NCBI RefSeq assembly: GCF_023343835.1
Contig: NC_064444.1
Coordinates: 18,451,219 to 18,515,218, forward strand
Reading direction: 5' to 3'
Origin: Lagopus muta
Taxonomy: Eukaryota > Chordata > Aves > Galliformes > Phasianidae
Length of the DNA: 64,000 nt
In this document: positions 34,152 through 48,000 of the stretch, piece after piece
Layout of the letters: the number at the start of each line of letters is the position of its first letter
How positions within the stretch are numbered: the first letter of the stretch is position 1
Translations under genes and position numbers: made by a program
The notes under the pieces: model-generated
Database searches by the model: none
What the model was told of the DNA's origin: nothing
Seen by the model: the letters and a program-made list of their open reading frames with translations, nothing else

Positions 34152-37100
34152 TCACAGCACCTTGCCGGGGTTCATCAGATGGAGGGGGTCCAGCGCGTCC
34201 TTGATGCGGCGCATGGCCGCCAGCCCCACGGCTCCCCGCTCCTCGCGCAGCAGCGCCCGCTTGCCCAGCCCCACGCCGTGCTCCCCAGTGCAGGTGCCGC
34301 CCGCAGCCAGCGCGCGCCTGGGGATGGGGACACGGCTGTCATCGTGGCGCCGTCCCAGGAGCCCCCTGCCCACCCGGTGCTGCAGCCCCACCTGCCCAAG
34401 CGCTCGGTGAAGTCGTGCACGCGCTGCGCCTCATCCGGGTCGTCGGCACGGAAGACGAGGATGCAGTGGAAATTCCCATCGCCCACGTGTCCCACCATGG
34501 GGCCTGTGGGTGACGGGGTGAGCGGGGCTTGGGGCACGGCACCCAGCAGGCGGTGGTGGCGGTGGGGCTCACCAGTGAGGCCGGAGTCCCGCAGGTCCCG
34601 CTGGGTCTCCAGCACGACGTCGGGCAGGCGGGAGATGGGCACACAGACATCGGTGGAGTAGCCCTGGGGGGGCACGGCTGGATGTGGTGCCGGGAACAGG
34701 CTCAGGGATGGGGACAAAGAGGGGACACGTTGCCAGACCTCACCTGGCAGCCGGGCCGCAGGGCCAGGGCTGCGAACCAGGCGCTGTGCCGTGCAGCCCA
34801 GAGCTGCTCACGCTCCTCCGGCGCCTGCGCCCAGGACAGGACAGAGCCACCATGCAGCTGCACCAGCTCCTCTGCGGTGGTGGGAGATGGTGACAGAGTG
34901 ATCACAGCAGCTGCCAGTCACCATCCTGCACCCAGGACCCCACTGTGTCCCCACCACGGGCAGTCCTCCCCAAGCCCAGTTCCCCCCCTTCCCCATTTCC
35001 ATTCCTACCCGCCTGCTGCTGCTGCTCAGCCAGGCTGCGCTGGGAGCCGTGCAGCTCCAGGAAGAGCATGGCCACCTCTGGAAGCTCCAGCCGACTGTAG
35101 CGGCTGCAGGCGCCCGCCATCACCTCGTCCAGGAGCTCTGCGGGGAGGAGGCAGCTGGGGACGCTGCTGAGGTTGTCCCGTTCCCATCCCCAGTCCCTCC
35201 CTGTCTTCATCCCCATCCCATCTCCACACTCCTTCCCATCCGTGTACTATCCCCATCCCGTTCCTGTCAGTGTAACCATCCTCATCCTATTCCTTTCCCA
35301 TTTGCATCCTTGCTACCTCCTTGTCCTGCAAATCTCACCTATGTCCCCATCCCTCACCATCTCCCAGTCCCGTGCCTATCCTCAGTGCATAGAATCATAG
35401 AATATTTTGTGTATGAAGGAACTTTAAAGGCCCTCTCTGCTCACACTCCCTGCACTGAGCAGGGACACCCACAGCTCCATCAGCGCTCAGTTCCCTGACC
35501 TTGGCTGTGTGCAGGGATGGGGCAGCACCAGCTCTGCGTGCAGCCTGAGCCTCACCACCCTGAGCGCGAAGGACTTCTTTCTCAGCTCCAATCTGAATTT
35601 CCCCTCTTAGTTAGCAGCCATTTCCCCTTGTCCTGTCACAACACTCCCCACTCAAGTCTTTGTCCCCTTCTTTCTTACAACCCCTTTAGATACTGAAAGG
35701 CCGCTATCAGGTCTCCCCATCCCCATCCTTGTTATCATCCCCCTCCCGTCCCCATCCCATCCCATTCTGTCTCCATCCCACCCCCACCCTCCCAGCAGCA
35801 CCCACCAATGCGCGCCACAGGCACAGCCGCCTGCAGCACCTGCACGGTGCAGCCCACAGCATCCCGCACGCTGGGGAAGGTGCAGACAGCGGAGAGCACA
35901 GCCTCAGGCAAGGGGTGCAGGCGCAGAGTCGCCTGCGTCAGGAAGCCCAGGGTGCCCTCGGATCCCACAAACAGGGAGGTCAGGTCGTAGCCAGCCGCGC
36001 TCTTCCTGTGCAGGGAGAGGTGAGCAGGTGCCGGGCACCCCGGCCCGTGGCCCCATTCCATCACCCCATACCTGGCGCTGCGCCCGGGCCCGGCGGTGTG
36101 CAGCAGGCTGCCGTCCGGCAGCACCACGCGCAGGTTGAGCACATTGGGCCGCATGGTGCCGTAGCGCACGGCGTTGGTGCCCGAGGCGCCCGTGGCCGCC
36201 ATGCCGCACAGCGAGGCGTCCGCCCCGGGGTCTGCGGTACAGCCGGGGGACCCGATGTGCCCAGGGGTCGGCAGCACCACCAGCACGTGGCACCCCTGGG
36301 GCCGGGAACACCTGGGACCCCCGCCACCCCCACCCTTGGGCACCCCCACCCTGTGCCTGCCCCTATTGCACCAAGCATTCCCCACAGCACCCAGCTCTGC
36401 AGGCACCCCCAGCATCCCTAGCAGCCCAGCCCTGCCAGCACACCTTGTCTCGTGGTACCGCTGGCCCCATGGGCACCTCCATCCACCCCTGTGCTCCCAG
36501 CACCCTTGGCCACATGGGAAACCCCGGTGCTCCCCATCAGCCCCAACCCTCCCAGTGCTCCCAGCAATACTGGCCCTGTGTGCCCACAATAAACAAAGTC
36601 CCCAAGCAGCTCCAGCCATCCCAGCCACTCCCAGCGCTTGCAGCACCTTTGGCTACATACACAACCCCAGTGCTCCTAGTTCTCTATGCGCTCCCAGCTC
36701 TTCCCAGCGGCCCCAGCCATCCCACTGCTCCCAGTGCTCCCAGCACCCCTGGCAACATGGACAACCCCAGTTCTTCCAGTCCTCCCAGCACTCCAAGATC
36801 TCCCCAGCCATCCCAGTGCCCTTGTCCCTGTGATATAGCTTCCCAGTGCTCCCAGTACCCTTAGCTACATGGAAAATGCCCATGCACCCAGTATCCCAAG
36901 ATCTCCCCAGCCACCCCAGTGCTCCCATCACCCTTGACCCTATGGAATATCCCAATGCTCCCAGTATTCCAGGTTCTCCCCAGACACCCCAGTACCCCCA
37001 GCACCCTTGCCCACGCGGGCAACCCCAGTGCTCCAAGTTCTCTGCATCCACCCCCAGCCCTCCCAGTGCTCCCAGCACCGCAGTCCCCGTGGGGAAGCTC

Positions 37101-37961
37101 TGGCATCCCAATGTACCCAGCGCTCCCTGCACCCTCAGCCACGTGGACAACTGCAGCGCCCCAAATTCTCCCCACATCCCCCACCATCCCATTGTTCCCA
37201 GCATTCCCAATGCTCCCAGCACCCTGGACCCCTCAATCCAGCCCCGAGTGTCACCCCACGCTGCCCAGCACCCCCAGTACCGACGGGGAACCAGAGCCCA
37301 GTGCCGCGCAGATGGGCATTGAGAGCCTTGCGGGTGACGCCGGGCTCCACCGCCACCGAGAAGTCCTCGACGCTCAGCTCCGAGATGGCGACCATGCGGC
37401 TCAAGTCGAAGCAGACGCCGCCCTGGCACAGCACAGCATGGCACGGGCAGCAGCGGGCGGTGGGGGTGTTGGGGGGGCTGGGGGCTGCGTACCTGCACGG
37501 CGTTGACACCGCCCTCCAGGCCAGTGCCAGTGCCGAAGGGCACCATGGGCACACGGTGCTGGTAGCAGATGGCCACCATCTCCTGTAGCTGCTCCACGTC
37601 TTGAGGCCACACCACGGCGTCGGGGGGTGCGCACCTGGTGTGGGGCACAGCTCTCATCGCCGGCCCCAAGGTGCAGCACGGCCCCACGGCGCTGCCCCCA
37701 GCCCCACCTGTGCATGGACTCATCGTGCCCGTGCTGCTGCCGCACCGCCTCCGCCACCGAGACATTGGGGTCCCCAGCCACGGAGCGCAGAGCCTGCAGC
37801 AGGCCAGGGGCCAGCGGGCGCTGTGGGAGGGGGTCTGGTCAGCACATGGTCAGGATCAGCGTGCGAGGGGACCCCTCGCAGCCCCCATCCCACCCCACCT
37901 GGCTGCAGCACCCGCGCCACCCCACGGCCCCCACCAGCCGCAGCGCGTGCTGCAGGGCCAT
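34152..37961 (-). CDS. LDHD: LDHD, mitochondrial D-lactate dehydrogenase (FAD)
   Basis: LDHD oxidises D-lactate and related D-2-hydroxyacids to 2-oxoacids, passing electrons on via FAD in mitochondria. Exons (minus): 37899-37961, 37708-37820, 37493-37634, 37281-37422, 36072-36231, 35806-36005, 35009-35137, 34744-34871, 34573-34663, 34392-34503, 34152-34317. They total 1446 nt, or 481 residues (human isoforms 484 and 507), with all phases matching. The start chosen is [11 protein letters not shown], an amphipathic, Arg-containing targeting-like peptide aligning with the human N-terminus up to the shared CCSQ/YCSQ exon end. An in-frame ATG 11 codons upstream is less likely. The FAD-binding PCMH domain contains [10 protein letters not shown] (about 92-101). 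The C-terminal FAD-oxidase domain contains [11 protein letters not shown] and [13 protein letters not shown] (435-446), with the metal/catalytic histidine at 440. Convergent with ZNRF1. Confidence 0.96.
35388..35720 (-). mobile_element. CR1 LINE 3' end in LDHD intron 6
   Basis: Reverse-strand CR1 starting 'catagaatcatagaatattt' and ending near 'aggccgctatcaggtctccc'. It shares long exact blocks with the plus-strand CR1 at 50735-50922 (for example the 'ctcagtgcagggctggga' neighbourhood), so both belong to one subfamily. The decayed LDHD copy at 43560-43820 lacks this insertion at the matching intron position. Confidence 0.93.
36240..37280. repeat. Degenerate minisatellite filling LDHD intron 4
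   Basis: Nearly the whole intron consists of imperfect copies of a C-rich unit with a recurring landmark 'agcacccttggccacatgg' followed by 'aaccccagtgctcc'. Landmarks sit near 36500, 36641, 36750, 36857, 36927, 36999, 37074 and 37128. The better-preserved units are thus about 70-75 bp long, with some longer or shorter ones. The repeat keeps a long open frame on both strands by composition alone. Confidence 0.8.
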
Positions 37962-38375
37962 GTTGGGCCTGGAGCCGTGCCCGGGGCTGCGCATGGCTGT
38001 GTGCTCCCCAGTCCCCTCCCGCCCAGCGTTAAGGTGGCTCCAGGCACTGAGACGCCTGCACGGCGTTATCTGACCGCAGCCACACGGCCCTGCCCTGCGT
38101 GTTGGGGTCAGAGAGCAGCGCAGCTCTCCTGGTGGGCCCCACACCATTGCAGCCAGCTGTCCGCACAGCAAGGAAGCCCACCGTCTCCTCTCACACAGTT
38201 GTCCCTGTGCTAAACCTGCTGTCCCCACACCCAGCCAGCAGAAGCCCCACATCCACCCAGGTGTCCCCACAGCTCCGTTGGTATCCCCATGTCCACCCAC
38301 ACGTCCTGCTCCTGGCCAGCCGTGCACAGCCCAGGGCTGCAGCAAGGACACAAAGACATGTTAGGGGAGAGGAAC

Positions 38376-38381
38376 TTTATT
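38376..38381 (-). terminator. Polyadenylation signal of the minus-strand CTRB gene
   Basis: AATAAA on the minus strand, 8 bases after the stop codon. This very short 3' UTR is identical in layout to the plus-strand copy. Confidence 0.85.
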
Positions 38382-38388
38382 CGGGGCC

Positions 38389-40141
38389 TCAGTTGGCCGC
38401 CATCACGGAGTCGATCCAATCGCGGAGCGCGGTGACACGCGTGTAGACACCAGGCACAGAGGTGGAGCAGGTGCTGCTGCCCCACGAGACGATGCCCACC
38501 AGCGTCCAGGCGCCGTCTTTCTGGCACACCAGCGGGCCTCCGGAGTCACCCTGTGGGCAGAGGGGTGAGGATGGGGGCACGGGGAGGCGGGGCTTTGGGA
38601 GTGCGCTTTGGGGCACGGGGCACCCACCGAGCAGGAGGAGGTTCCGTCAGCCCCGGCGCACACCATCATGTTGTAGATGCGTAAGCCCCAGTACTGCTTG
38701 CACTGAGTGTTGGTGAGTAGGGGAAGGGCCGCCTGCTGCAGGATGGCCGGCGTGTCCGCATCTGTCAGCGAGCGGGAGGCATCCGTCAGTGCCGGCTCAG
38801 CCCGGGGCCAGGGGTAGAGACGGGGAGGGGGCCGCGGTACCGTTGGAGTTGAGGACCCCCCAGCCCGTGGTGACGCAGCTCAGGCCCCCGGGGAAGTCGT
38901 CGGTGGCCTCGGGCAGGCAGACGGGCGACACGCGGGCGTTCAGCTGTGCTGGCGTGGCCAGCTTGATCAGCGCGATGTCGTTGCGGATGGTCAGCCAGCT
39001 GTAGCTGGGGTTCCGGAAGACCTGCGGCAGCGGCAGCACTGACAGCAGCTGCCCCCGAGTGGGGCACTGCGTGCTGGGGGTGCGTGGGGACGGGCAGGGG
39101 GCGGGAGCCGGCCTTGGCACCCACTGTGCTCACAGCTGCCCTGAGGGTGGGCACCACCAAGCCAGCGCTGGAGGGGACCCCAGGACCCAGGCAGGGATCC
39201 CATCAGCACTGGGACTGACGGGGGCCCGGTGGGCAGAGCTCCATCCTTGGGGAACCGGGGACGGCGCTGGGACCCAAAGCCGAGTACTACCAAGGGTCCA
39301 GAGGGACCCAGCACCACGATGAAGGACTCTGTGGGGACGCGAGCCCTGATACAAAGGGCAATGAGGACGACGAGGGGCCCCAACCCCGTAGACGCGGGGC
39401 GCCCATCCCCGCAGCGCTGCCGGCACTGAGCACAGAGCCCGCAGGCACGCGGCCCAAAGCTGGCAGTACCTTGGCGACGCCCAACCTCTGCTCGTCACTG
39501 GAGGACTCCTCCCGGTCGTACTCTCCCAGCACCACGGTGTCGGTGGTCCTGGGCAGGCAGGTGCTGAGCCCTGGGCGCACAGACAGCCCCGGTTCCGCGT
39601 CCGCCCCACGGCTGCCCCGCGCTTACCTGACCCCGCAGTGCGCGGCGGTGACCACCCATTCCTCGTTGATCAGCGACCCGCCGCAGAAGTGGAAGTTGCC
39701 GTAGCGCTGGAGAGAGCAGCCGTCAGCCCCACAATCACCCGGCCCCATCCCCATCCCCATCCCCATCCCCATCCCCATCCCCATCCCCATCCCCGTCCCC
39801 ATCCCCATCCCCATCCCCATCCCCGTCCCCATCCCCGTCCCTGTCGCCACCCATTCTGGTGGGCGCTCACCTGCAGGGACACCTGCCAGGGCCAGGACCC
39901 GGGCACCGCCGGCTCCCCGTTGACGATGCGGTTGAGGCCGCGGATGACGGGTGTGATGGCGGGCACACCGCAGCCTATGGGACGGGGACAAGCGTGGGGC
40001 CTCGGCCACCTCAGCCCCGCACCCCAAACCCAGCCCCCCACCCACCCGGCTCCCTGCCCTGCTCCACGCACTCGGCAATGAGCGGGCGGCACGGGCAGAG
40101 CCCGCCAGCACCAGGCAGCCCAGCAGCCACAACAGAGCCAT
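38389..40141 (-). CDS. CTRB: Chymotrypsinogen B, minus-strand copy (Gly226 type)
   Basis: Pancreatic serine protease zymogen (S1A family), secreted by acinar cells and activated by trypsin. Exons (minus): 40072-40141, 39871-39974, 39627-39706, 39470-39548, 38841-39021, 38628-38761, 38389-38550; 269 residues. A hydrophobic signal peptide ([18 protein letters not shown]...) precedes C25 (chymotrypsin Cys1), and activation follows R39 (GLNR/IVNG). The catalytic triad is H81 (TAAHC), D126 (NDIALIKL) and S219 (GDSGGP), that is 57/102/195 with offset 24. The S1 pocket is Ser189, Gly216 (SWGS) and Gly226 (codon at 38449-38451), so chymotrypsin-like. The exon 1 donor (gtgcgt) gives six extra residues before Cys1 compared with mammals; a weaker upstream GT would remove them. 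Divergent partner at 41348. One-to-one orthology with human CTRB1/CTRB2 cannot be set from sequence alone. Confidence 0.94.
39737..39845. repeat. (CCCATC)n hexamer repeat in CTRB intron 2, long copy
   Basis: Tandem CCCATC/CCCGTC units. This copy is 30 bp, or five hexamers, longer than the mirror copy at 41640-41718. Confidence 0.92.
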
Positions 40142-40197
40142 TGCCACTCACGGGAGACAGGCTGGGCACGGGCACAGCGCTTCTTATGGCCCCACGC

Positions 40198-40206
40198 TGA
40201 CCTTGT
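40198..40206 (-). promoter_or_regulatory. NR5A2 (LRH-1)-type motif upstream of minus CTRB
   Basis: ACAAGGTCA on the minus strand, 57 bases before the start codon. It fits the YCAAGGYCA half-site used by NR5A2, which is known to drive acinar digestive-enzyme genes together with PTF1. Mirror of the site at 41283. Confidence 0.5.
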
Positions 40207-40449
40207 GCCGTGACCTCCAGAGATAGCGCGGCACCGTGTGGGGCCGGCACCTGGCACCACGGCCATCATCCACCCCTGGGAACTGCCCAGACCGCTGGGA
40301 TGGGGACCAGCCGCTGCCAGGCGGCCTTCCTGGAAACGTCCCCAATGGGCACCGTGCCTGTGTGCACCCACTGCGTGCTGGGTGTGCCTGGCAGCGGGCT
40401 GCCTGTGCTGGAGGTGGGCCTGCTTCCATGCAGAGGGCTGCCGCAGCTG

Positions 40450-41039
40450 ATGGACTCTGTGCTGCTGGGCACCAGCTGTGTGATCTGGCTCTGTTTACTG
40501 CCACCGCAGTGAGAATGGTGTCCCTGGTGTTGCTGGGGACCGAGCCAGGATGTGAGCATGGTTCCAACGAATAGACTGCACTCTGGTGCAGTGAGTACTG
40601 GGCTCCCTCTGCATGTTGGGAAGCACTTCTGCATGGTGGGAGTGAGGGCACGGGTAGCTTGCTCAGTGCTGGGAGCAGGGACCATGGGGACACCTGGGCC
40701 AATGTTCTGATGCAGCAGCTGCTGGCCTGCACCTTGGGATGATGCTCAAGGCTCTGCTGGTCTGCCCTGGACTGAGCGTAGAACAGCTGGGACAGCTTTG
40801 GGATCCCATCACTGGTAGAGATCAGAAAGGAAGAACTCAGTCCGTGGGGTGCTGGGGACACCACAGAGACCCAAAACCAAGGATGAGGAGGACCAAGAGA
40901 ACCCTGGGAACGTGATCCCCACTGCGTGAGGGAAAAGTGATACCACAGGGCCCTGACTATCAGGACAAAATGCAGCAGGCTGAACTCCTGTGTCTGCCAA
41001 AGCACCATGCGGAGACCCAGCCCTACAGCAGCGGAAGCA
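40450..41039. other. Unique spacer between the CTRB inverted-repeat arms
   Basis: 590 bp without similarity between its two halves as far as I can see, and without any family-like reading frame. Together with the arm sequences on each side it forms the 1.2 kb intergenic region of the divergent CTRB pair, so it may hold a shared acinar enhancer. No specific element was identified. Confidence 0.6.
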
Positions 41040-41235
41040 CAGCTGCGGCAGCCCTCTGCATGGAAGCAGGCCCACCTCCAGCACAGGCAGCCCGCTGCTA
41101 GGCACACCCAGCACGCAGTGGGTGCACACAGGCACGGTGCCCATTGGGGACGTTTCCAGGAAGGCCGCCTGGCAGCGGCTGGTCCCCATCCCAGCGGTCT
41201 GCGCAGTTCCCAGGGGTGGATGATGGCCGTGGTGC

Positions 41236-41241
41236 CAGGTG
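41236..41241. promoter_or_regulatory. E-box (CAGGTG) in CTRB promoter
   Basis: A CAGGTG/CACCTG E-box about 110 bases upstream of the plus CTRB start, with a TTCCCA (RBPJ-like) hexamer some 28 bases further upstream. PTF1 binds an E-box plus an RBPJ-type box, but its normal spacing is shorter, so this is only suggestive. The mirror copy is present in the left arm. Confidence 0.35.
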
Positions 41242-41282
41242 CCGGCCCCACACGGTGCCGCGCTATCTCTGGAGGTCACGGC

Positions 41283-41291
41283 ACAAGGTCA
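41283..41291 (+). promoter_or_regulatory. NR5A2 (LRH-1)-type motif upstream of plus CTRB
   Basis: ACAAGGTCA, 57 bases before the start codon and just upstream of a CATAAGAAG stretch (about 41300) at TATA-box position. It is a good match to the acinar NR5A2 half-site. Confidence 0.5.
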
Positions 41292-41347
41292 GCGTGGGGC
41301 CATAAGAAGCGCTGTGCCCGTGCCCAGCCTGTCTCCCGCGAGTGGCA

Positions 41348-43070
41348 ATGGCTCTGTTGTGGCTGCTGGGCTGCCTGGTGCTGGCGGGCTCTGCCCGTGC
41401 CGCCCGCTCATTGCCGAGTGCGTGGAGCAGGGCAGGGAGCCGGGTGGGTGGGGGGCTGGGTTTGGGGTGCGGGGCTGAGGTGGCCGAGGCCCCACGCTTG
41501 TCCCCGTCCCATAGGCTGCGGTGTGCCCGCCATCACACCCGTCATCCGCGGCCTCAACCGCATCGTCAACGGGGAGCCGGCGGTGCCCGGGTCCTGGCCC
41601 TGGCAGGTGTCCCTGCAGGTGAGCGCCCACCAGAATGGGTGGCGACGGGGACGGGGATGGGGACGGGGATGGGGATGGGGATGGGGATGGGGACGGGGAT
41701 GGGGATGGGGATGGGGCCAGGCGATTGTGGGGCTGACGGCTGCTCTCTCCAGCGCTACGGCAACTTCCACTTCTGCGGCGGGTCGCTGATCAACGAGGAA
41801 TGGGTGGTCACCGCCGCGCACTGCGGGGTCAGGTAAGCGCGGGGCAGCCGTGGGGCGGACGCGGAACCGGGGCTGTCTGTGCGCCCAGGGCTCAGCACCT
41901 GCCTGCCCAGGACCACCGACACCGTGGTGCTGGGAGAGTACGACCGGGAGGAGTCCTCCAGTGACGAGCAGAGGTTGGGCGTCGCCAAGGTACTGCCAGC
42001 TTTGGGCCGCGTGCCTGCGGGCGCCGTGCTCAGTGCCGGCAGCATTGCGGGGATGGGCGCCCCGCGTCCACGGGGTTGGGGCCCCTCGTCGTTCTCATTG
42101 CCCTTTGTATCAGGGCTCACGTCCCCACAGAGTCCTTCATCGTGGTGCTGGGTCCCTCTGGACCCTTGGTAGTACTCGGCTTTGGGTCCCAGCGCCGTCC
42201 CCGGTTCCCCAAGGATGGAGCTCTGCCCACCGGGCCCCCGTCAGTCCCAGTGCTGATGGGATCCCTGCCTGGGTCCTGGGGTCCCCTCCAGCGCTGGCTT
42301 GGTGGTCCCCACCCTCAGGGCAGCTGTGAGCACAGTGGGTGCCAAGGCCGGCTCCCGCCCCCTGCCCGTCCCCACGCACCCCCAGCATGCAGTGCCCCAC
42401 TCGGGGGCAGCTGCTGTCAGTGCTGCCGCTGCCGCAGGTCTTCCGGAACCCCAGCTACAGCTGGCTGACCATCCGCAACGACATCGCGCTGATCAAGCTG
42501 GCCACGCCAGCACAGCTGAACGCCCGCGTGTCGCCCGTCTGCCTGCCCGAGGCCACCGACGACTTCCCCGGGGGCCTGAGCTGCGTCACCACGGGCTGGG
42601 GGGTCCTCAACTCCAACGGTACCGCGGCCCCCTCCCCGTCTCTACCCCCGGCCCTGGGCTGAGCCGGCACTGACGGATGCCTCCCGCTCGCTGACAGATG
42701 CGGACACGCCGGCCATCCTGCAGCAGGCGGCCCTTCCCCTGCTCACCAACACTCAGTGCAAGCAGTACTGGGGCTTACGCATCTACAACATGATGGTGTG
42801 CGCCGGGGCTGACGGAACCTCCTCCTGCTCGGTGGGTGCCCCGTGCCCCAAAGCGCACTCCCAAAGCCCCGCCTCCCCGTGCCCCCATCCTCACCCCTCT
42901 GCCCACAGGGTGACTCTGGAGGCCCGCTGGTGTGCCAGAAGGACGGCGCCTGGACGCTGGTGGGCATCGTCTCGTGGGGCAGCAGCACCTGCTCCACCTC
43001 TGTGCCCGCTGTCTACACGCGTGTCACCGCGCTCCGCGATTGGATCGACTCCGTGATGGCAGCCAACTGA
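41348..43070 (+). CDS. CTRB: Chymotrypsinogen B, plus-strand copy (Ala226 type)
   Basis: Second intact digestive chymotrypsinogen, head to head with the minus copy. Exons: 41348-41417, 41515-41618, 41753-41832, 41911-41989, 42438-42618, 42698-42831, 42909-43070; 810 nt, 269 residues, all phases closing. Layout is as in its partner: secretory signal, Cys1 at residue 25, activation after R39, triad H81/D126/S219, Ser189 equivalent at 213, Ser at 192 in place of the usual Met. The only protein difference I can find from the partner is residue 250 (chymotrypsin 226): Ala (GCT, 43008-43010) instead of Gly. In mammals Gly/Ala226 separates chymotrypsin A-like from B-like P1 preference, Ala disfavouring bulky Trp. 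The 3' UTR is tiny, with AATAAA 8 bases after the stop. Confidence 0.94.
41640..41718. repeat. (GGGGAT)n hexamer repeat in CTRB intron 2, short copy
   Basis: Mirror of the 39737-39845 tract but five units shorter. Confidence 0.92.
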
Positions 43071-43077
43071 GGCCCCG

Positions 43078-43083
43078 AATAAA
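43078..43083 (+). terminator. Polyadenylation signal of the plus-strand CTRB gene
   Basis: AATAAA 8 bases after the stop codon, the mirror image of 38376-38381. Confidence 0.85.
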
Positions 43084-43246
43084 GCCTCATTTCCCCGACA
43101 CGTCTTTGTTTTTGTGCTTCCAGGCGAGCAGCGCTGTGCTCCAAGCCCCTCGCGCAGGGCAGGGCCACTGAGCACGGGTTGGTGCTGGTGGCACAGGGAC
43201 ACACGTGCAGAACAGCGGGGCAGGCAGTGAGCAGCGCTGCTGTGCA

Positions 43247-44000
43247 GTGCGTGGAGCCACCTTAACGCCCAGTGGGAGGGAACAGCAAGGACACAGGGCC
43301 AGGCCCCACCGCTGTGTGCAGTGGGGCTGGTGGGGAATGTGGTACTGCAGCTGGGGGGGGATGGGCTGAGGGGCTTGAAGTGTCTGTGAGGGGCCCAGAG
43401 GGGTCACTGAGGGGTCCTCGGGGTTCCCAGCCCCAGGTGTGCCATGTGCTGGCAGTGCTGCTGATCCTGGGACACACGGGGTACCCTCATCCCATTGCAA
43501 ACAGACCCTGAGCAAATGCCCCACTGTGTGACACAGCTGCCATGGAAACATCTGGAATTGTACAAGGTTAGATGGGATGCGTGGAATACAAATGAGACGG
43601 TGATAGGAATGGCTACACAGACAGGGCCTGGGTGGAGATGGGACAGGGATGGGAGGGCTGGCAGGACAGGCCTGGGCAGAGGATGGGCAATTATTGTGTG
43701 GGGCCAGGGAAAGGACAGGATGGAAGAGAAAGGTAATGGTGACAGGGTGGACATGAGGACAGGAGATGGGGACACAGACGGGACAGCCCTGCAGGTCTTC
43801 TGGTTGCCTCATTCCTCCTAGCAGAGCTCCTGGGCGAGATGATGGTGGGCACCTGCATCCACTACAGCCAGCTGGAGCTCCCAGTGCAGCCTGGCTGAGC
43901 AGCAGGGATAGAGGTGGGGGAAGGGGGTGCATGGGATGGAGCTGGTGTCACACGGTGCTGTGGTCCCCACGGTGCAGGATGCAGCTGGCTCCTGGGTGAG
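43247..44000 (+). pseudogene. LDHD: Decayed inverted copy of LDHD segments
   Basis: Plus-strand remnants of LDHD in the order expected from an inverted duplication. 43247-43290 matches the LDHD 5' flank (38010-38045: 'ggagccaccttaacgc'). 43425-43500 matches the end of intron 4 ('gtgccacgtgctggtggtgc' there, 'gtgccatgtgctggcagtgc' here). About 43500-43563 is a degraded exon 5. 43570-43820 matches intron 6 without its CR1. 43822-43905 is a degraded exon 7 (AELL.E.M.GTC..YS.LELP). About 43905-43990 matches intron 7. Exons 1-4, most of the intron 4 minisatellite and exon 6 are missing, and the remaining exon pieces carry stops and frame changes. No function expected. Confidence 0.8.
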
Positions 44001-45080
44001 GAAGGTGACCAGCACTTGGGCACACAGGAACAGGGCTGGAGGTCACAGTGAGAGCTGAGGCAGGGAGCACATGAATAGGGCAGGGGGCTGGATGCACAGG
44101 GTCAGGTCTGTCCTGTGCACCAGGTACATGCTGGGGCACTGCAGCAGCCCTGAGAGCCCACACTCCAGCTCTGGGTGCCTGTGGCCCAAGGCTACCATGG
44201 TACCCACTGCCCTGGCACTGCCTCCCTCTGCACAGCGGCTTCATTGCAGCCCGGGTGTAGGTGCCAGATGAGCACAGCAAAGGTGGGTGGCTGTGGCTGT
44301 GCAGCACTGCAAATTCGCTGCTGCTTGTGCCCATGGCCAGTGCCACGTCCTGTTCCACATCAAGACGCTAAGAGCAAGCCCATGTTACTGCTCTACCATA
44401 AAGTGTGTGGCATCCCAGTCATGCTCCAGCACTGCTGCTTTTTGGGGACAGGACACCCCAGCTGCTCCCACAGGGTGCCTGCTCCCAGCACTGCACACAC
44501 AGCCAGGCACCAGGGGGATTTCTAGGCAAATCTTTATGCTGCTGTGGGACCAGGGGGCTGAGTTTTGGGGGCGGCTGCAACTCCACGGCTCCGGGAACCG
44601 GAGGAAGCTTCCCCAGTGTTCAAAAGGCACCAATGTCGGTTTGCATTTCAGTTACAGCCGGTACTGTGAAACCACCAAGACTTGAAACGCAAAGGTTCGA
44701 GCCCCTCATCCCCCCTGGCTGCCCCTCGCCCCCTCCCCCATCACTCAGGACAGCACTCTTCATCTCCCCGCTGCTGCTCCTTGGCCTGGTCTGTCTGTGC
44801 CACAGCACTACAACAGCTGGCTGATGTGCTGACAGAGCCCGCAGCGTCGTCCCAGGGCACTGGGGCAGCCCCACTGCCAGCCCCATCTCGACTGGAGCAG
44901 AGGAACGAACACAGAAGGGAGAGATTGCGCCCCTGGTACTGCGAGCATGGCTCTGAAACCAACGTCGAGAGGAAGAGGAGGGAAGGGGATGATGGCCCCA
45001 GCCCCTCAGCCCTGCGTGAGTCTCTGTGACAGCTCTGTTACGCCAGGCAGAGGGCCGCGGGGGGCAGCGGCACAGGGCCA
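44000..45080. other. Intergenic, and 3' UTR of BCAR1
   Basis: Between the LDHD remnant and the BCAR1 stop. I see no gene. The BCAR1 3' UTR must extend leftwards from 45080, but no canonical AATAAA on the minus strand is visible nearby. A CATAAA variant at 44533-44538 is a possible poly(A) signal. The stretch 44050-44270 may hold further diverged duplicate sequence, but I could not match it to an LDHD exon. Confidence 0.5.
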
Positions 45081-48000
45081 TCACATGGCGGCCAGCTGGC
45101 CCAGCACCATCCTGAACTGCTGCGTGCTGTTGGCGAGGTCCTTGACGCGCTCCACCATGTCCTTGGAGGCGGCAGGTGACGGGTAGTGCAGCGCGGCCGC
45201 TTTGGTGCTCACCACGATCTCCTTGAGCATCTCGCACAGGAGGTTGCTGTAGTGCGTCACCTTGTGCCGCACGTCCTGCGCCTTGGCCTGGCGGGACAGC
45301 GTGTCGCCGATGAAGACGAGCTTGTGGGCGCTGAGGATGATGAATTTGCTGTGGGCCACAAAGATTTTTGGGGGCTGGTTGGTGCTGACGGCGGTGAAGA
45401 AGGCGTCGATGGCGTTGGTGAGCGTGGTGAGGTTGGCCTCGCACTGCTCCAGGTAGAAGAGGAGCAGCTGGCGGTCGGCGGCACACAGGGCCCCCCCGCC
45501 CCGCGCAGGGCCGTAGTGCTGGGGAGGGCTCCAGTTGGACAGGTCATTGTCAATGGGCCGCGTCACCTCCTGCTCCAGACGCTCAAACTGCTTCAGCTGT
45601 GGGGAGACATGGCTGTGAGGATGGGCAGGGCGGCCTCTGAGCCCCACGGCAATGGCTGCGCCCCAGGGGATGCCGCACGGGACCAGTGCCCCAATCCCCT
45701 CTGGCATTGGAGAAGAGCCAGACGGTGCCACACAGAGCGATGGGGGACTCGCGGCCGTGGGCACACAGGGAGCAGGAGCCTAAACCTGCTGCCCTCCCCA
45801 CCTCGGGGTCCCCACTGAGCCGTGCCCGTTCCCCAGCCCCATTACCTGCTGGTGCTCCAGCTGGTCCTTGCTCTGCCGGATAATGTTGCCTTTCTCCAGC
45901 AGCTCTTTCTGCGTCTTCTCAAACTCCTCCTTGCCCTGAAAGTAAGGAAAAACCATGAGAAGGGGGCAAACCACAAACCCTGAGCGCCCAGCCCCACACC
46001 AGGACGCCCTCAGTTCCCAGGGCCGCAGCAGGAGGGGGAAAACAAGACCCAAGCGAGGAGACACAAAGCCCATCCGTGTCAGCCAGTGCCACAGGGTGCC
46101 CCCAGCCCGCGCCCACCTGGAGGTGCACGTAGTCGTAGTCCTCCATCCAGCCACTCTCGTGGTTCTCATACGGGCCCTCGGGTGACTCCTGTGCCAGCAG
46201 TTTGGGCGGGGAGGGCAGGGGCCGTGACTGGATGCTGCTGGCCTTGTCAGAGGGGTGTGCGGGCCCGTGGCCATTGCCCTCGGGCACCGGCTTTGTCCGT
46301 TTGAAGAGCAGAGAAGCATTGCCATGCAGGAAGGAGGCGAGCTGCTTGGTGTCGTCGGGCACGCCGCGCGAGTACATGACGAAGAGCTCCAAGTCGTCCG
46401 TGCCCGGCTTGCCGGCCACCAAGGCGCTAGGGGCCCAGTGGCACGCGTCCAGCGCTTGGCTGTGCCGCCCCAGGGCCTGGTAGACCTCCTCCATTTTCTG
46501 CAGCTGCTTGCTGAGCTTGGCGTACAGCGAGCGGTCCGAGGCCTGGGCGGCGTTGCCCACCGCCCCCCGGGCGAACTCCAGCAGCTCTCGGAGGGCCGCC
46601 TGCACACCCTCGGCCGCCCCACGGATGCCGGCAGCATTGGCCTCCATGTGCTCAGGGCTGCGCCAGTTGGTGCTGATGAAGGACATGAGGCAGGAGACGG
46701 CACCGCTGACGCCGAGCTGGAGCTTGGCCAGCATCTCCATAGCAGCGTCCAAGTCCATGGAGAACTCTCTGCCGGGCCCTTTGGCCGGCTCCTTCACGGG
46801 CACCGTGTCCAGTGAGGAGGTGGAGATGTTGCTGCGGGTGCTGCCCGTGCTGGAGGCCGAGAGACGCTTGGTGTCAGCCGCCTTGGCCTCGCGGTCCACC
46901 TGCGGCGGGACATCGTAGATGTACTCACCCTCCGTGTCCACCAAGCCCTTGCCGGGGCCGTGCAGGTCCCGCGGCACGTCGTACACCTCCTGCGAGGGGA
47001 AGGCTGACCCCCCCAGCTTCTTGAGGCTGGGAGGCACGTCGTAGATCTCGTGGGACAGCGAAGGCTCAGGGGCGGCTTTCCCGGCTGCTGGCGGCACGTC
47101 GTAGACATCCTCCGGCAGGAAGGGCTCCTGCTGGGTGAGCACCGCGGGGTGGTGGGGGGGCTCAAAGGCTTTCTGCTTGGCGAAGGCAGGGGGCACATCA
47201 TATGTCTCCTCCCGCACGGGGCCGTCCGGCACGTCCTTGCTGACGGAGGGCGGCACGTCGTATACCTGCAAGGGCACCGCCAAGCAGCATCAGTGCAGCT
47301 GGAGCCACTCGTGCACACCAGCCCCGCTCCCATGTGCCGCCGTGTGGCAGGGAGGCAGAGCTGTGCAGTGCCCAAGGGTCCGGCTGCACCCTGCTGCACG
47401 TAAGCACTGGCTCTGGGCACGCTGTGGGCACGTGGAAGGCGATGCGCTCGCCGCAGCCCAGCAGCACCCCCGCCCTCACGTGTCTCTTTTGGTGCACAAG
47501 TTTTCCCTGCAGAACTTACTGTTTGGTGCAAGTTCTTCTCCACGCTGGGGGGCACATCGTAGATCTCCTGCCCCGTGTCCTGCCCGTTGGGACCCTTGAC
47601 TGCCATGGGGGGGGTGTCATAGACCTGCCGGGAGGAGACAGGATGGCGTGTCAGGGGCAGGAGAGCAGCCCCAGCACCCAACGCAGCGGGGACCCCGGCA
47701 CTGCCCAGCACTGGGTGCCGCATCCCCACAGCCTGTCACCCCGTTGCCACCCCGCAGCCCCACAAGCCGCCCCACAAGCAGCCCCACTTTCTGTCTGACC
47801 TGGCTGGGCAGTGCACCGCGCACGGGTGGCACATCGTAGATCTCCTGGGAGCCCGAGGAGAGGAGGTGGCGGGGAAAATCGTATTCGTCTTGCTCGCCCT
47901 TGGGGGAGTCATAAATGTACGCCTGCCCCACGCGGGTGGGCAGCAACACCTAGGAGAGAGGAGAAGCGCTGAGCCCCGCACATCGCCCTGCTCTGCCCTC

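Follow-up and report, generated by a model that had tools for sequence, protein, structure and literature searches.

How do two neighbouring genes come to encode proteins that are alike in every residue but one, and what keeps that residue, which shapes the substrate pocket, from being made alike as well? The question is raised by a pair of chymotrypsinogen genes of Lagopus muta, found in a window of 64,000 nucleotides (the whole stretch that was analysed, C15:18451219-18515218 of a 1.03-Gb assembly of 165 contigs). The two genes stand head to head and are divergent, and each has seven exons, GT/AG introns and a coding sequence (CDS) of 810 bp with a product of 269 residues. Comparison of the CDSs and of the proteins bears out what a preliminary description of this DNA had claimed, namely that the sole difference in 269 residues falls on precursor residue 250, which is Gly in one protein and Ala in the other. 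The genes and the two codons are as follows.

38389..40141, minus strand: chymotrypsinogen gene with Gly226 (A-type); exons from 5' to 3' 40141-40072, 39974-39871, 39706-39627, 39548-39470, 39021-38841, 38761-38628, 38550-38389
38449..38451, minus strand: codon 250 of the A-type gene, GGT, Gly, chymotrypsin residue 226
41348..43070, plus strand: chymotrypsinogen gene with Ala226 (B-type); exons 41348-41417, 41515-41618, 41753-41832, 41911-41989, 42438-42618, 42698-42831, 42909-43070
43008..43010, plus strand: codon 250 of the B-type gene, GCT, Ala, chymotrypsin residue 226

Against bovine chymotrypsinogen A (1acb_E, residues 1-245, E 1.8e-112), the mature protein gives an alignment with no gaps, and the match to the trypsin-fold domain PF00089 (E 6.9e-72) places it in peptidase family S1A. 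His57, Asp102, Ser195, and Ser189 are all present, and the motifs TAAHC, NDIAL, and SSCSGDSGG align to the bovine residues. Since the alignment is gap-free over 245 residues, precursor residue 250 corresponds to chymotrypsin residue 226, as it had been numbered before; the bovine protein has Gly at this position. Passages of PMC11937528, with Hudaky et al. (1999) as their source, describe residue 226 as shaping the substrate pocket and as the main determinant of the specificity difference between chymotrypsins A and B. They give Gly226 for bovine A and human CTRB1 and Ala226 for bovine B and human CTRB2, in agreement with what the preliminary description had said both of the determinant and of the human genes. 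According to the same passages, human CTRB1 cuts more robustly after Trp and CTRB2 more efficiently after Phe, Tyr, and Leu, and a single Ala-to-Gly change in mouse CTRB1 lowers kcat/KM on a Phe substrate 4.1-fold. An excerpt of PMC5325619 likewise has BPTI inhibiting chymotrypsin A and not chymotrypsin B. Because the minus gene encodes Gly226 and the plus gene Ala226, the window holds an A-type/B-type pair. It shares this contrast with the bovine and human pairs; the human proteins, however, are also distinguished at other positions, such as Asp236/Arg236 (PMC11937528, in part), and the two genes of the window encode a difference at 226 only.

The DNA is less uniform than the proteins. Both genes lie in the arms of an inverted repeat.

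38350..40449, minus strand: left arm of the inverted repeat (homogenised tract)
40450..41039, no strand: spacer of 590 bp between the arms
41040..43109, plus strand: right arm of the inverted repeat (homogenised tract)

Aligned against each other (41040-43109 with 40449-38350), the arms differ at 32 of 2070 bases (1.5%), besides 30 bp of repeat length; BLAST reported 28 mismatches and 3 gap openings. Hence the earlier statement that the pair is homogenised everywhere except at the pocket stands for the protein and fails for the DNA. Between the two CDSs, 6 of 810 bases are substituted: five of these substitutions are synonymous, three of them being CpG changes, and the sixth, the replacement at codon 226, is the only transversion. 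The six are spread unevenly, with 1/648 in exons 1-6 versus 5/162 in exon 7 (Fisher p 0.0015), and the synonymous differences follow it (one over 164 synonymous sites in exons 1-6, four over 41 in exon 7). Upstream of the genes 3 of 308 bases differ, and the inner edge of the arms is sharp, with one difference within the first 100 bases; the 3' flank after the stop codon differs at 9 of 39. On either side of codon 226 there are 3 differences in the preceding 100 bases and 10 in the following 99, and therefore the pattern is a ramp towards the edge of the tract rather than a peak centred on the codon. A low substitution density everywhere but at codon 226, for which a check had been proposed, is accordingly not what was found, as synonymous divergence is raised across exon 7 too and rises outward. 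Among the introns, differences number 3/134 in intron 2, 2/79 in intron 5, and 9/448 in intron 4. Seven of the last lie within the 97 bases of 42023-42119, a cluster denser than exon 7 whose function is not evident. Intron 2 also contains a GGGGAT-type tandem repeat (41640-41716 and 39738-39852), which is 30 bp longer in the minus gene.

The flanks show that the duplication is old. To the right of the plus gene, 43120-44014 matches, in inverted orientation and in the same order, pieces of the left flank between 38132 and 34912.

34912..38132, minus strand: LDHD sequence and flank, matched in order by the relic
43120..44014, plus strand: inverted, decayed partial duplicate of LDHD and of the interval between LDHD and the chymotrypsinogen gene, situated between the plus chymotrypsinogen gene and BCAR1
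45081..47289 (examined part only), minus strand: BCAR1-like gene, the right neighbour, with CAS_C and Serine_rich domains

All five minus-strand flank matches at E 1e-3 or better are collinear, and the ordered inverted matches indicate that one inverted duplication took the chymotrypsinogen gene together with part of LDHD. The best local score of the relic is 93, against a maximum of 42 in 60 control segments elsewhere in the window. The first part of the right flank beats all 500 shuffles under two scoring schemes, narrowly in one (49 versus a maximum of 45) and widely in the other (49.8 versus 24.5). A stop interrupts the relic at a point where the LDHD exon stays open. Summed over five blocks, between which there is a little overlap on the right side, the relic differs from the LDHD side at 190 of 714 aligned bases (26.6%). 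The duplication is old, and its arms have been homogenised since, because the LDHD relic has diverged by 26.6% and the chymotrypsinogen arms by 1.5%; such a contrast between a pair of copies and the remainder of their duplication is the mark of concerted evolution. Gene conversion within the arms would be the natural cause. The relic, which lay outside the earlier finding, also shows that the duplication was formerly larger than the present arms. The left flank gene carrying the LDHD exons has a FAD_binding_4 domain; we take it to be LDHD from this domain and from its position beside chymotrypsinogen and BCAR1. In this window LDHD and BCAR1 flank the pair, which may stem from the mammalian CTRB1/CTRB2 duplication itself or from a parallel one. 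In the human locus it is presumably CTRB2 (Ala) that adjoins the LDHD side, the reverse of the order here.

We consider the following account the best supported, and rather more probable than its rivals taken together, though far from assured. The A/B pair would descend from an old LDHD-including inverted duplication that was homogenised by conversion upstream through exon 6, while the 3' end of exon 7 escaped and keeps Gly226 and Ala226, probably with help from selection. The original event would have copied chymotrypsinogen and part of LDHD, and the LDHD part would have decayed. The facing arms would exchange sequence by gene conversion, by which about 300 bp upstream, the promoter-proximal sequence and exons 1-6 would be kept near-identical. 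The homogenised tract would end in or just past exon 7, where the flanks may have grown too different, and the 3' end of that exon would escape recent conversion, so retaining Gly226 versus Ala226. By analogy with the mammalian enzymes, Gly226 of the minus gene would give a wider S1 pocket that accepts Trp, and Ala226 of the plus gene a narrower one that is better on Phe, Tyr, and Leu. Selection for both specificities probably helps to preserve the difference. If both genes are expressed, as seems likely, the retention of both residues predicts that the bird makes a Trp-accepting and a narrower-pocket chymotrypsin whose proteins are otherwise identical. A search of the whole assembly with exon 7 DNA gave two matches, the two window genes; it thus revealed no third chymotrypsinogen copy, although a strongly diverged one could escape such a search.

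The behaviour of residue 226 in other birds bears on the part assigned to selection. The survey covered 49 bird records identified by name in lists of at most 120 matches, each record standing for one 90% cluster; scores were computed just for the candidates with most words in common. Among these matches the closest proteins are those of white-tailed ptarmigan (98%) and sage-grouse (97%), and the mature Ala-copy protein differs from the two records at 3/245 and 6/245 residues, respectively. Residue 226 is Gly in 29 records, Ala in 16, and Thr in 4 (one Gly was read by alignment, being unreadable by pattern). Otus (Gly226) and Leptosomus (Asp at 226, labelled low quality) stand outside this tally. 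In the same set residues 190, 191, 214, 216, 217, 220, and 228 are invariant, and 189, 213, 215, 225, and 227 hardly vary. The states are mixed within several groups: among ratites and tinamous Rhea has Ala, and Apteryx and Crypturellus have Gly; among waterfowl Anas has Ala, Cygnus Thr, and Oxyura and Mergus Gly; among cuckoos Phaenicophaeus has Ala and Cuculus Gly; and galliforms and passerines both include Gly and non-Gly records. A bird tree was built without columns 192 and 224-229 from an alignment in which badly predicted segments of 14 rows had been masked. Its rows cluster by bird lineage, with 7 of 50 inner branches starred and 24 open. On this tree Gly versus Ala/Thr at residue 226 requires 12 changes, tied first among 157 variable columns and equalled by residue 149 only, so that the check across birds proposed earlier, made here on protein records, finds Gly, Ala, and Thr alternating repeatedly. 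Among the 108 other vertebrate proteins in the matches listed, 226 is Gly in 88, Ala in 16, Ser in one, and unreadable in three. Two records of green turtle (Chelonia mydas), P0143 and P0170, have Ser226 and Gly226, a hint of a similar pocket split outside birds.

Japanese quail comes nearest to the window pair. Its records P0007, P0030, P0033, and P0037 belong to the same family and include forms with Thr226 and with Gly226 that differ little at other usable positions; they depart from the window pair in having Thr instead of Ala, in differing at residue 224 too, and in gene models that partly look wrong. For example, among 208 usable columns P0007 (Thr226) and P0037 (Gly226) disagree at five, namely 64, 65, 149, 224, and 226, the first two of which adjoin a masked segment. 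Over 214 columns, P0007 and P0033 differ at 89-93 (an apparent model error), 148, 149, 224, and 226. That selection keeps two pockets is plausible on these protein records, because 226 alternates repeatedly across birds, the rest of the pocket wall is nearly constant, and quail has both Thr226 and Gly226.

Residue 192, which we take to lie at the pocket entrance, may tell which copy was overwritten. It is Ser in both window genes (42829-42831, plus; 38630-38628, minus), and Met in 39 of the 49 listed bird records, with Ser in the ptarmigan, sage-grouse, and turkey records. Residues other than Met192 occur in 9 of 16 Ala226 records and in 1 of 29 Gly226 records (Fisher p 1e-4, with kinship ignored), a count that includes one Cariama record labelled low quality. 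A pairs test on the bird tree, with five pairs on supported branches, gave the link between 192 and 226 no support (median p 0.5). The link stays a lead, since the pairs test is not significant and one Cariama record is of low quality. Ser192 in both genes would be consistent with the Ala gene having overwritten the body of the Gly gene through exon 6, with the Gly gene keeping its own end of exon 7.

Two explanations deny the history just given. The pair could be a recent duplication, with arms alike since they are young and with a few new mutations as their only differences; divergence at merely 1.5% of bases is what this would lead one to expect. The same duplication includes LDHD sequence that is 26.6% diverged with five of five minus-strand matches in order, however, and quail has both forms too, which leaves this explanation very improbable. 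It was rejected on the evidence of the LDHD relic, which contradicts it unless the relic comes from a separate, older event. More improbable still is an artefact, in which the Gly and Ala copies would be alleles of a single locus or the product of a misassembled palindrome. Near-identical palindromes are difficult to assemble, but the outer flanks differ (LDHD on one side, the LDHD relic and BCAR1 on the other), the copies are separated by 32 substitutions and a 30-bp length difference, and each gene occurs once in the 165 contigs.

The explanation that presses hardest on selection, and that we regard as unlikely yet well within reach, accepts the old duplication and its conversion and makes the difference a neutral leftover. 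Conversion would seldom extend into the final ~200 bp of the tract, leaving more differences of every kind in exon 7 and the 3' flank, and the one replacement would happen to fall on 226, a residue tolerant of Gly, Ala, and Thr. The outward climb of synonymous divergence across exon 7 fits this, and 226 changes often in birds, including where only one record is known. From the window alone selection is not proved, because codon 226 is in exon 7, the outer end of the tract is ragged, and synonymous divergence is raised there too. Several further points weigh against our preferred account. In crude neutral conversion simulations (8 settings, 32 differences), at least 5 differences fell in exon 7 in 1.6-21% of runs, with up to 21% where conversion was restricted near exon 7; a first version that assumed 28 differences, since superseded, had given 1.6-15%. 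The arm comparison lacks the two-sided divergence peak at codon 226 that is the opsin-type signature of selection, and the intron 4 cluster is as dense as exon 7. Columns kept out of tree-building, as 226 was, tend to score more steps (224 and 229, likewise kept out, take 9 and 7). With full residue states 226 takes 14 steps, behind 149 and 224 with 15 each. Random placement of its states gives a mean of 16.4 changes, and 12 changes or fewer arise in 15 of 1000 shuffles; as 12 is below that mean, related birds share the state to some degree. Both records of Pavo, and both of Cariama, are Ala226. Each of the 49 listed records being the representative of a 90% cluster, both forms within one species are seen only in the window and in quail, whose gene models contain errors.

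A neutral leftover has its own difficulties. The single replacement in 269 codons falls on the published and best known A/B determinant amid fixed pocket residues, quail shows a similar split with Thr, and in the same simulations the joint pattern of exon 7 and 3' flank arose in 0-5% of runs. The sharp inner edge of the arms also speaks for selection. Selection holding Gly and Ala apart against conversion, as first proposed, therefore remains plausible in view of the alternation in birds and the quail records, and loses ground to the edge ramp and the less homogenised exon 7. Our preferred account can be extended, tentatively and with somewhat less than even confidence. Birds would have kept the inverted A/B pair since before their main lineages split, with conversion repeatedly rewriting all but the pocket residue, so that the pair would act like a single enzyme having two pockets. 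The grouse Gly gene would then be a chimera of an Ala-gene body, including the Ser192 found elsewhere mostly with Ala226, and its own A-type exon 7 end.

Systems of this kind are known, and the pair is an unusually clean, testable example of one. Opsin duplicates under conversion stay functionally different over a short part of exon 5 according to an excerpt of PMC3924837, and in this they resemble the window pair; their divergence forms a peak that is low on both sides, whereas here it is low on the inner side only. Among the papers listed on chymotrypsin A/B, the human inversion, conversion with neofunctionalization, and avian duplication and concerted evolution, represented mostly by titles and abstract openings, no bird chymotrypsin pair like this one was found; on LDHD/CTRB1/BCAR1 synteny no papers came up. 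PMC2720389, on converted mammalian pairs, contains neither 'CTRB' nor 'chymotrypsin', and the available parts of PMC11018521 and PMC10654233 add nothing on residue 226. In feed-efficient chickens, CTRB1 and CTRB2 are both listed with the genes whose levels are raised in the duodenum, according to part of PMC12523079. Scans of the window for Rfam families and tRNAs gave no matches.

The locus provides two natural enzymes that stand one pocket residue apart, and what the A/B chymotrypsin split is worth can therefore be tested with nothing else altered. It is likewise a compact test of selection versus gene conversion, in which the LDHD relic serves as a clock beside a homogenised tract and a functional site near the end of that tract, and this test can be compared across birds.

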